Translations under genes and position numbers: made by a program | Shown here: positions 34,150 through 37,398 of the stretch, in pieces | How the letters are laid out: each line of letters starts with the position of its first letter | How positions within the stretch are numbered: the first letter of the stretch is position 1 | From: Candidatus Methanoplasma termitum | Lineage (GTDB): Archaea > Thermoplasmatota > Thermoplasmata > Methanomassiliicoccales > Methanomethylophilaceae | Assembly (NCBI RefSeq): GCF_000800805.1 | Contig: NZ_CP010070.1 | Span: 1,178,001 to 1,242,000 of the forward strand | Direction of reading: 5' to 3' | DNA length: 64,000 nt | Notes under the pieces: model-generated | Told to the model about the DNA's origin: nothing | The model's input: only the letters and a program-made list of their open reading frames with translations | Databases searched by the model: none

Positions 34150-34863
34150 ATGCCTGAAGTCAGAATCGTCCTTGTCGGACCCAAGTTCGAAGGGAATGTG
34201 GGTGCGGTCGCCAGAGCCATGGCCAATTTCGACATTGACGAGCTGTATCTTGTCGAGCCTTGCGAGCTGGGCGATGATGCATACCGCAGAGCAAAACACG
34301 GCTCGGATGTTCTGGACAAAGCCGTAACAGTGCATACGATGGATGAGGCCGTAGAAGGTTGCTTCCTTGTTGCAGGCACCAGCGGAATAATCACGCATGG
34401 GGACAGGAACTACACAAGGCTCCCGATAAAGATCAGGGAATTTGTTCAGCAGGTCTCGGGATATGAAGAGAGGATCGCCATTGTTTTTGGGAGGGAGGAT
34501 GTGGGCCTGTATCAGGATGAACTGAATAAATGCGATGTCTTCATCCATGTACCAACAAGCGAAAAATATCCAACCCTCAACCTTTCTCACGCAGCGACAT
34601 TGGTGATGTATGAGTTCTTTCAATCCGGGAATATCACAAGGCGGGCGGAACCAGCCGACAGGAAGGAAAAAGAGTACATGCTCAGTTTCTTCGATGACCT
34701 TATGGACGCCATCGATTATCCCGAGCACAGAAGATCCGATACGTCGGTCATGTTCAGACGCATGATGGGCCGCTCCATTCCGACCAAATATGAATACAAT
34801 ACGATCATGGGAATATTCGGGGATGCGTCTAAGATAATAAAGAAAGGTAAGAAATGGGGATGA
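34150..34863 (+). CDS. TrmJ-like SPOUT RNA 2'-O-methyltransferase
   Basis: A SPOUT-fold methyltransferase of 237 residues that places a 2'-O-methyl group, most likely on tRNA nucleotide 32. The family motifs are RIVLVGPKFEGNVGAVARAMANF at the N-terminus, IVFGREDVGL, and the knotted SAM site in LNLSHAATLVMYEFF. The C-terminal helical extension (about 75 residues) is the form seen in archaeal TrmJ. The final 35 bases overlap the converging FtsZ-like gene. The assignment to position 32 is by family, not by a visible feature. Confidence 0.85.
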   Translation: MPEVRIVLVGPKFEGNVGAVARAMANFDIDELYLVEPCELGDDAYRRAKHGSDVLDKAVTVHTMDEAVEGCFLVAGTSGIITHGDRNYTRLPIKIREFVQQVSGYEERIAIVFGREDVGLYQDELNKCDVFIHVPTSEKYPTLNLSHAATLVMYEFFQSGNITRRAEPADRKEKEYMLSFFDDLMDAIDYPEHRRSDTSVMFRRMMGRSIPTKYEYNTIMGIFGDASKIIKKGKKWG

Positions 34864-35677
34864 ACAGTAATACCCTGTGATCATCCCCGTGGTTTCCAGA
34901 CACTATCTCGGGGATTATTCCCGTCTTGTCTCCGATCGTTTTTGATATTGCCTCTTTGTCAGCTCTGCTTATTTTAGCATCAGAGGTAACGATGATCTTT
35001 CCGTAGTTGGGGTCGGCATCGAAAAGATGTTCGTCCATCGCCGCCAGGACCCCCTTGACCGGGTCTTTCGACGACCGAAAAGCTATTGTGTACACCCTCT
35101 CGCTGAGTGTGCTGAAGAACGGCCCGTCAAGCATCTCGCATATTCTCACAATGGCCTCCTTCATCATTTCGTCTGCAAGCGATATCGCTTCGTTGATGGT
35201 CAGCGACCCTCCGCCTCTCTGCGGCATCTTTCCGATGTCAAAGATTATCGTTCTGTCGGATATCTGGATTATTTTCTTCATCTGGCTCATCGCATTGTCT
35301 CTGCGTACCCCTTCGAACGGCATCGGTATGCTGACGACTGAGATCAGTCTCGCGCCTATATCTTTGGCGCATTCTTCGATCACCGGGATCGTTCCTGAGC
35401 CGGTGCCCCCGCCGAGTCCGGCCGTCACAATTATATTCGCATATCCTGAGAGGGATCTGCTTATCTCTCCTTTATAGTCGTTCGCCAGTGCCCATCCGAG
35501 GTTCATGTCCCCTCTGCACCCGTCCACGCCGCTGCCGTCCGCCATGGATATTGTCGAACCGTGGTCCCCGGTGTTGATCGTGACCACGGCGATATTCCGC
35601 TCGCCGGGTATCATTGAAACAATGCGCTGACCGGCTCCACCCGAACCTATGACCAGCGTCCTTCCCGCCAGGATCAT
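34829..35677 (-). CDS. FtsZ-like tubulin-fold protein lacking the T7 catalytic loop
   Basis: A tubulin/FtsZ-superfamily protein of only 282 residues. The GTP-binding signature is intact: VIGSGGAGQRIVSM at the N-terminus and GLGGGTGSGTIPVI (residues 87-100). After the helix NEAISLADEMMKEAIVRICEML the canonical FtsZ T7 loop GLINLDFAD is missing; the sequence instead reads DGPFFSTLSERVYTIAF. This implies binding of GTP but reduced or lost hydrolysis on assembly. The protein also lacks the usual long C-terminal tail. The upstream RHH gene overlaps its start by 4 bases, so the two are coexpressed. It ends in TAG, and its end overlaps the TrmJ-like gene antisense. A true divisome role is inferred. 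Confidence 0.85.
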   Translation of the reverse strand: MILAGRTLVIGSGGAGQRIVSMIPGERNIAVVTINTGDHGSTISMADGSGVDGCRGDMNLGWALANDYKGEISRSLSGYANIIVTAGLGGGTGSGTIPVIEECAKDIGARLISVVSIPMPFEGVRRDNAMSQMKKIIQISDRTIIFDIGKMPQRGGGSLTINEAISLADEMMKEAIVRICEMLDGPFFSTLSERVYTIAFRSSKDPVKGVLAAMDEHLFDADPNYGKIIVTSDAKISRADKEAISKTIGDKTGIIPEIVSGNHGDDHRVLLFIPISYLSLLS

Positions 35678-35973
35678 TCCTCCGGATCCATCCTTGACTT
35701 CACATAACCTCTGACAGCCTTCCTGACGGCCTCATCCATTGATTCGGGGTTGTTATCTGTAAGAAGGGACTCCATCTTCAGAGGCTGCTCTTTTACGTGG
35801 CCTTTGAGGGCCTTTTCCGACTCCTCGGACGTAAGATTCGCCTCGATCATCTGGCTTATCGCTTCGGCAATACACTCGGATAAACTGTTAAAGTGTCCTT
35901 TATTTACGAGCGCCTGAAGAAGCAATACCGTGTCCGGCGAAAGCCTGACGATGATCTTGTTTGTGGGGTCCAT
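35674..35973 (-). CDS. Ribbon-helix-helix protein coupled to the FtsZ-like gene (CdrS-like)
   Basis: A 99-residue protein whose first 45 residues are a ribbon-helix-helix DNA-binding domain: KIIVRLSPDTVLLLQALVNKGHFNSLSECIAEAISQMIE. The remaining half is acidic and helical, ending SRMDPEE. The stop overlaps the start of the FtsZ-like gene as ATGA, so translation is coupled. In haloarchaea the RHH regulator CdrS is encoded with ftsZ2 and controls division genes; this locus has the same arrangement in a distant lineage. The functional link is inferred from context and domain type. Confidence 0.8.
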   Translation of the reverse strand: MDPTNKIIVRLSPDTVLLLQALVNKGHFNSLSECIAEAISQMIEANLTSEESEKALKGHVKEQPLKMESLLTDNNPESMDEAVRKAVRGYVKSRMDPEE

Positions 35974-36051
35974 ATGAATGCCTTAAAATGTATGTGCGAT
36001 AAATAAAGATGTTGTGTAAAAGGTTTTGTCTTGCCAAGATAAACTTACCGT

Positions 36052-36369
36052 TCATCCGAACAGAGCGCTCAGACCAGCTGCTGCGTCCTCTTCGCTGACC
36101 GCGGGTTCCTCGTGGACTTCCGGCTTTGCTGCTGCGGCGGGTGCCTTTGCTGCTGCGGCTGGCGCCGCTGCTGCGGGTGCAGGTGCGGCTGCGACTGCGG
36201 CCGATGCTATGGCGGCCTTTATGTCGACTCCCTCGAGTGAAGCGATCAGTGCTTTGACTTTAGCTGCGTCGACCTCTACTGCTGCGGCCTTGAGGATCGC
36301 CGTTACGGCCTCCTCAGTTATCTTTTTGCCAGCAGAGTAAAGCACCATTGCACTGTAAATATACTCCAT
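36052..36369 (-). CDS. rpl12: Ribosomal protein P1/L12
   Basis: The acidic stalk protein of the large subunit, 105 residues, which recruits translation GTPases. It begins [20 protein letters not shown], has the Ala-rich hinge ([14 protein letters not shown]), and ends [14 protein letters not shown]. The same 14-residue tail ends the neighbouring L10, as expected when both use the same factor-binding peptide. It is the last gene of the L1-L10-L12 group, 15 bases after L10. Confidence 0.95.
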
Positions 36370-36384
36370 TTATTTCAACTCCTT

Positions 36385-37398
36385 TTAGCCAAATAATGCG
36401 CTCAGGCCAGCTGCTGCGTCTTCTTCGCTGACCTGTTCTTCTTCTTTCACTTCTACTTTCTTCTCCTCTTTCTTATGGGGTTCCGCTGCAGGTTTTACAC
36501 TCGCTGCGGCCGCCGCTGCCGAACTGAGTCTGGCTGCGATGGCATCGCTCTTGTATCCTGATTTGGAAGCTACGGCAAGCATCTGATTGTCTGCCTTTGC
36601 AAGAAGTATCTTGATGTTCTCTTTGGTCGGTATCGCGGCTGATATCGAAAGGCCCATTGCCTCTCTGAACGCCTTCGTGACAAGCGGCACGATCGTTTCT
36701 TTCGTTGTCCACGAAATATCGATTGCCAATGCACGAGCGTCGTGTGCAGCCGTAGCGAACATTGTTTTGTAATAATCATCGGGTATTGCGAGCACTTCTT
36801 TCTTGTACACTGTGCCGTCCTCAAAGACGGTCCTCAGGTCCATGCCCACTATTATGGGCAGGATGTTCAGTTTCGGAAGCATCGCTGCGACCCCCGGCGG
36901 GACCGGTTCCCCGGCCTTTACCAGTGTCGTATCCTTTTTGATTGCTATCTTTCCAGCCTCGATTGCGGCCTGAAGGCCTATTTTCTGAAGTTCACCGATC
37001 ATGGGACCGGGACCGAACGGGGTTGGCCCTTTGGGGACCATTATATCCTTGGGTGCCAGCTGTCCTGCTTTTATAGCGGCTGGCGTCATTGTGGCCTCAA
37101 GCTTCTTGCAAAGCTTGAACGGGTTCATGTCCGTTGCCATGATGGCGCACTGCCCGTGCACAGATCCTTTCAGTTTATCGATGCCTGGCCTCTGTTTCGC
37201 GGCTTCATCAAGCGCCAGCAACATAAGATTGTTCTTGGTCATCTTGAGTATAGCGTGCTCACGGAGGTCGGCTCTCATCGATTGGATCTGCGGCGCCGGG
37301 ATGCCATGCAGGTCAACCACTGCTACAACAGGGTTTTCCGTTATGTCCTTGACGATCTCACTTACCATGTCCTTCTTCCAAGTTGCGACGTGTGCCAT
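36385..37398 (-). CDS. rplP0: Ribosomal protein P0/L10
   Basis: The stalk base protein (337 residues) that binds 23S rRNA and carries L12 dimers. N-terminal rRNA-binding domain: WKKDMVSEIVKDI and the GIPAPQIQSMRADLR helix; then the insertion domain (PKGPTPFGPGPMIGELQKIGL); then the helical spine for L12 binding and the charged hinge KKEEKKVEVKEEE before the shared [14 protein letters not shown] tail. The length is that of the archaeal P0 form. Its start is 11 bases after the L1 stop. Confidence 0.96.
   Translation of the reverse strand: MAHVATWKKDMVSEIVKDITENPVVAVVDLHGIPAPQIQSMRADLREHAILKMTKNNLMLLALDEAAKQRPGIDKLKGSVHGQCAIMATDMNPFKLCKKLEATMTPAAIKAGQLAPKDIMVPKGPTPFGPGPMIGELQKIGLQAAIEAGKIAIKKDTTLVKAGEPVPPGVAAMLPKLNILPIIVGMDLRTVFEDGTVYKKEVLAIPDDYYKTMFATAAHDARALAIDISWTTKETIVPLVTKAFREAMGLSISAAIPTKENIKILLAKADNQMLAVASKSGYKSDAIAARLSSAAAAAASVKPAAEPHKKEEKKVEVKEEEQVSEEDAAAGLSALFG

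Follow-up and report, generated by a model that had tools for sequence, protein, structure and literature searches.

Canonical FtsZ appears to be missing from the archaeal family that contains the window (the whole stretch of 64,000 nucleotides analyzed here). What seems to remain of FtsZ in this family are two shortened relatives that lack the catalytic loop, each encoded beside its own ribbon-helix-helix (RHH) regulator. We take the family, coded f1, to be the Methanomethylophilaceae of the order Methanomassiliicoccales. One of the two relatives, FtsZ-B, is encoded in the window and is most likely a GTP-binding, non-hydrolysing remnant kept under the RHH control of its ancestor, and the family would divide without an FtsZ protofilament. 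The RHH and FtsZ-like reading frames lie where the first-pass annotation had placed them and overlap by 4 nt as ATGA (Table 1), and the TrmJ-family gene and FtsZ-B overlap at their 3' ends. Along the minus strand, the genes are presumably those of the ribosomal proteins L1, P0/L10, and L12, followed by RHH and FtsZ-B.

Table 1. Features of the FtsZ-B locus, in positions of the window.
Feature	Position	Strand	Evidence
FtsZ-B, FtsZ-like protein of 282 aa, predicted FtsZ fold without T7	34829..35677	-	ORF, profiles, alignment, model
Tandem ribbon-helix-helix (RHH) protein, 99 aa	35674..35973	-	ORF, hhalign
T7-region remnant GPFFSTLSERVYT, FtsZ-B residues 185-197	35087..35125	-	alignment; coordinates computed from ORF
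T4 GTP-binding motif GGGTGSG, FtsZ-B residues 89-95	35393..35413	-	ORF, alignment
Block TTTACACAACATCTTTAT 5' of the RHH gene, candidate promoter/operator	36003..36020	-	genus alignment
TrmJ-family RNA methyltransferase, convergent; conserved neighbour marking the locus	34150..34863	+	profile, locus comparison
Ribosomal protein L12, upstream neighbour	36052..36369	-	sequence character
Ribosomal protein P0/L10, upstream neighbour	36385..37398	-	sequence character

The window's genome is a single contig of 1.49 Mb and 99.96% complete. By the Pfam Tubulin/FtsZ GTPase domain (PF00091) it holds two FtsZ-family genes, FtsZ-B and FtsZ-A (at 550527), and the search for a canonical FtsZ elsewhere in the genome, proposed in the first-pass annotation, returned none, FtsZ-A being the only other homologue. 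None of the 102 genomes of the family reached the cut-off of the FtsZ equivalog profile, while 96 of them gave a weaker match. In a class-wide search of genomes at least 85% complete, 203 of 283 passed this cut-off. By a hand count from the table, each of the 33 genomes from the order's remaining families lay above it, with an E-value of 1e-116 or better, against 0 of 63 for the window's family (a zero taken from the family-wide search). The sister families in the order carry 3 to 8 FtsZ homologues. FtsZ-free genomes also occur elsewhere in the class and are therefore not peculiar to the window's family: for 13 of the 48 genomes of family f26, another such group, the search gave no FtsZ-family match whatsoever. 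Four fairly complete genomes (G018, G020, G021, and G032) contain one FtsZ-family match each, of the A-type in the last three, which indicates that FtsZ-B is not indispensable family-wide.

FtsZ-B scored 68.1 bits against PF00091 (cut-off 33) and 82.9 bits against the NCBIfam FtsZ equivalog, far below its cut-off of 295.2; against the Tubulin_2 FtsZ-like family (PF13809) it scored 19.1 bits, below the Pfam cut-off of 27. We aligned it with C1, the RHH-linked FtsZ paralog of the sister families in the order (n = 19, 18 from 20 fetched regions and one from G048; the G041 and G060 regions held canonical FtsZs). The T7 loop had been described as replaced. The alignment bore out its absence, with no catalytic Asp recovered, but the change is more than a substitution: GPFFSTL of FtsZ-B lines up with PSLINL, after which ten positions are deleted that comprise the catalytic half of T7 and the start of H8, the deletion point lying after PFFST(L/F) relative to C1. 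The motif N[LI]D[FY][ASN]D is kept in 19/19 C1 proteins and its counterpart in 12/12 canonical FtsZ rows, compared with 0/43 FtsZ-B proteins. The ten-position deletion is shared by 42 of the 43 (8 of 18 columns filled, versus 18/18 in every C1). The exception, from genus g14 (L086), has kept its length and reads SVGMSK at the NLDFAD position, as does a second g14 copy; both g14 copies are intermediates that retain H8. Counting this second copy, the catalytic aspartates are lost in 44/44 copies read. In Staphylococcus aureus FtsZ, according to the part of PMC8936486 that we used, the T7 aspartates of one subunit act on GTP in the next one. The GGGTGSG GTP motif reported for the FtsZ-like protein is present, and T4 (GGGxGxG) is kept in 39/43 FtsZ-B and 28/28 FtsZ-A proteins. 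With T4 mostly kept but the T2 Asp lost in the window's FtsZ-B and many others, GTP binding by FtsZ-B is likely. A profile scan of genome contigs found mainly ordinary FtsZs, and L106 (UBA328) was the sole clear FtsZ-B among the matches listed. On a Methanobrevibacter contig (L113, 1753-7995), we noted three FtsZ genes, two of them with altered T7 motifs.

The origin of FtsZ-B could be traced by its position. TrmJ was present in the fetched locus of 42/43 FtsZ-B and 19/19 C1 genes and in 0/28 FtsZ-A loci, and the RHH protein upstream of FtsZ-B matches that upstream of C1 with an E-value of 1.2e-14. A cognate RHH gene lies directly upstream of 34/43 FtsZ-B and 19/19 C1 genes, so the pair is kept among relatives, a check that the first-pass annotation had called for; of the nine FtsZ-B genes for which no cognate RHH was found, at least one (L042) reaches the end of its contig. 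A 73-row tree built without FtsZ-A places FtsZ-B and C1 together on one side of a branch with support 100/98, with long-branch warnings. With FtsZ-A included (94 rows), FtsZ-B, FtsZ-A, C1, and the canonical FtsZs each formed one group (C1 94/99, the others above 95), with no firm deep order among the four and several long FtsZ-B branches. Shared locus, orthologous RHH gene, and clade show, at the level of sequence, that FtsZ-B is a vertically inherited, T7-deleted, positional ortholog of C1, which differs from it in keeping the catalytic T7 and in coexisting with canonical FtsZs.

The second homologue, FtsZ-A, has 237 aa and ends right after H7, before T7, so that it consists of the GTPase domain only. 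T7 is absent in all 28 FtsZ-A rows, five of which come from sister families in which canonical FtsZs are present too. FtsZ-A has its own RHH gene upstream (the two genes at L001, 1306-2019 and 2107-2463; G000:C1:550 kb), whose product looks tandem by eye, and FtsZ-A occurs in the window's and sister families. In both genomes examined (L088 and L090), we take its neighbour to be a leucyl-tRNA-synthetase-like gene. Two perfect palindromes of 16 and 14 bp lie at about -97 to -58 of the RHH-A start in L088; no perfect palindrome of at least 10 bp was found upstream of RHH-A in 10 genus relatives, which have similar-looking stretches by eye.

FtsZ-B is predicted to have the complete FtsZ fold including the C-terminal subdomain. 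In the AlphaFold model (pLDDT 82.8, pTM 0.84, from a 22-sequence alignment), H7 runs to residue 183 and is followed by a five-residue helix and a strand at 195-203, and the C-terminal subdomain is present. The top PDB matches to the model are FtsZs, the best being Methanocaldococcus jannaschii FtsZ (2vap; Z 33.5, rmsd 2.4, 281 aligned), compared with Z 27.7 for CetZ1 (4b46) by structure comparison alone; this result leans towards FtsZ because the input alignment was mostly FtsZ.

The family has lost every FtsZ recognisable as canonical and retains just FtsZ-B and FtsZ-A. Because FtsZ-B has no catalytic loop and often no T2 Asp, and FtsZ-A has neither T7 nor the C-terminal subdomain, neither would form a hydrolysing protofilament, which would make FtsZ-B an adaptor or switch rather than part of a treadmilling ring. 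FtsZ-B would be made from a locus that adjoins the genes of the ribosomal stalk, translational coupling would fix its ratio to its own tandem-RHH repressor, and in its GTP-bound, non-hydrolysing state it would act in the control of growth or division. We see an even chance that the T7-deleted C1 ortholog of this FtsZ-less family works in this manner.

SepF was found in 24/37 family genomes, with weaker scores in most of them, and in 24/24 others, and the PRC-barrel protein in 33/37 and 23/24, respectively. As the window's own genome has SepF, some FtsZ-like polymer could persist, which speaks against an adaptor or switch. A survey, in the part of it that we used, reports that SepF systematically co-occurs with FtsZ (PMC8178401). 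Alternatively, FtsZ-B, alone or mixed with FtsZ-A, might still assemble at the division site into a ring or scaffold that is stabilised by GTP without hydrolysing it, perhaps via SepF, an idea with which the complete predicted fold, the mostly kept GTP motif, and the SepF and PRC-barrel counts agree. However, the interface loop is deleted in FtsZ-B, and T7 and the C-terminal subdomain are missing from FtsZ-A. SepF is lost or undetected in 13/37 family genomes, among them 10 of the 20 outside the window's genus, and FtsZ-B is present in some of these: G019 and G031 (genus g4) and G027 (g12) have it, and in these PRC was undetected as well. A SepF-binding-like C-terminal tail, sought with a loose regular expression of our own that recognised just 5/12 canonical FtsZs, occurred in 0/43 FtsZ-B, 0/19 C1, and 2/28 FtsZ-A proteins. 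We therefore regard a static ring as unlikely, although it is the strongest competitor of the adaptor or switch.

The regulator encoded upstream of FtsZ-B is an RHH protein, as annotated, which can now be refined to a tandem of two units: when the N half of the family was compared with the C half, hhalign gave a probability of 96.8 and an E-value of 2.7e-10, which makes it a double RHH. It scored 15.6 bits against Pfam RHH_1 (cut-off 20.5) and 22 bits against NCBIfam CdrS, far below the cut-off of 100, and in the window's genus its second unit does not have the VTVELPK-like strand present in the C1-linked proteins. The block TTTACACAACATCTTTAT is conserved upstream of the RHH gene in most of 11 aligned genus members; it resembles a promoter and is a candidate promoter or operator. 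No operator common to both RHH genes was found in the genome; the RHH-B block gave one exact and one 1-mismatch match, and a reversed control pattern was equally frequent at up to 3 mismatches. RHH genes adjoining archaeal ftsZ2 are already known from the portions used of PMC8178401, PMC9871819, and PMC7439475. The CdrS-FtsZ2 operon is like the window's pair in that an RHH gene immediately precedes a gene of the FtsZ family with a Tubulin domain and FtsZ fold. Nevertheless, Halobacterium CdrS, in the part of PMC7439475 concerned, is a 55-aa protein with a single RHH domain, compared with the 99-aa tandem protein of the window, and archaeal FtsZ2 differs from FtsZ-B in that the latter has no T7 and falls far short of the equivalog cut-off. 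FtsZ-B might instead help the RHH protein to control transcription, as a GTP-sensing co-factor with no cytoskeletal role. The ATGA coupling of the window's family, tighter than the 13-43 nt gap of most sister-family loci, the conservation of the pair, and the RHH linkage of FtsZ-A would all fit. But RHH-FtsZ2 linkage is widespread in archaea in which FtsZ2 is a division protein (PMC7439475 and PMC8178401, in the parts that we used), so linkage alone implies no complex, and we consider the co-factor role improbable, more so than a static ring.

FtsZ-B is under purifying selection, with dN/dS of about 0.1. The closest FtsZ-B pair gave dS 0.41 and dN 0.044 (dN/dS ~0.11, Nei-Gojobori), and the window's FtsZ-B against that of G016 gave dS 1.08 and dN 0.142 (dN/dS ~0.13, same method), the larger dS values being in saturation. 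These values, together with the 44 copies sharing the loss, rule out a pseudogene or sequencing artefact. FtsZ-B could still be a weakly constrained relic heading for loss, given its long branches, its apparent absence from some genomes, and the precedent of Nitrosopumilus maritimus FtsZ, which has no T7 and does not polymerise according to part of PMC3684127. The constraint argues against this, as do the pattern GPFxSxF..xYT, conserved in 34/43 FtsZ-B proteins, and reading frames maintained in at least seven genera, and we find a relic quite implausible. The N. maritimus protein (Nmar_1262) is, like FtsZ-B, an FtsZ homologue without the T7 loop; in the same part of PMC3684127 the GTP motif is missing from it as well and its host is likely to use Cdv for division, whereas the FtsZ-B family mostly keeps the motif and CdvB was undetected.

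Finally, the suggestion in the first-pass annotation that FtsZ-B regulates or caps the division ring, conceivable in general in that a subunit lacking T7 could block the end of a protofilament, fails because no normal FtsZ remains in the complete genome or in the family above the cut-off, and we regard it as refuted for the window's genome, barring a highly diverged FtsZ that escapes PF00091 and TIGR00065, and as scarcely credible overall. Plant ARC3 and the truncated magnetosome FtsZm likewise have an FtsZ-like GTPase region without the full catalytic C-terminal half. Both act beside a canonical FtsZ, whereas none was found in the window's genome. The other part of that annotation, a GTP-binding, non-hydrolysing FtsZ relative beside an RHH gene, is supported: GTP is probably bound but not hydrolysed, and the RHH gene has a CdrS-like position.

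Two replacements for the missing ring were considered and rejected. For CdvB/ESCRT-III, the Snf7 profile matched 0/61 genomes, in a search of modest sensitivity since its control matched Sulfolobus only, and below the cut-off; the MIT domain matched 1/41 genomes, at E 7.7e-4 and also below the cut-off, in a genome that is 76% complete. For MreB, the PF06723 matches in the window's genome reached at most 72 bits and lie in frames of 529-694 aa that are Hsp70-like by our own reading. In L232 (6007-14824; G000:C1:670-679 kb), a cluster of three other genes is enclosed by a pair of Hsp70-like genes of 527 and 692 aa. Extra copies of this kind, found with the MreB profile, occur in many family genomes, and nearly all sister-family genomes have a single match. 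A full-length MreB match of 439 bits (G009:C91:2498-3487) was confined to a single genome within the genus and is possibly contamination.

FtsZ is regarded as almost universal in the division of euryarchaea. The window's family consists of gut-associated methanogens. An RHH gene beside archaeal ftsZ2 and, from the part used of the Nitrosopumilus work, a T7-less archaeal FtsZ were known. In the open literature searched, we found no report of a family whose FtsZs all lack T7 and in which Cdv was undetected, nor of FtsZ loss in the order or family. In term searches, FtsZ was unmentioned in PMC4153887 (Borrel 2014), and PMC9258230, PMC7617429, and the available part of PMC7203096 contained nothing on FtsZ loss. 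We hold with middling confidence that the whole family, by inference the Methanomethylophilaceae, divides without an FtsZ protofilament or ESCRT-III/Cdv, its FtsZs reduced to two repurposed, catalysis-dead, separately RHH-controlled GTP-binding proteins, with SepF decaying afterwards genus by genus. If true, this decay would be a graded natural experiment in Z-ring loss. A family without catalytic FtsZ or detected CdvB makes division without a hydrolysing FtsZ filament directly testable, as it does the use of a T7-less FtsZ, for which the catalytic ortholog C1 at the same locus provides a built-in comparison.
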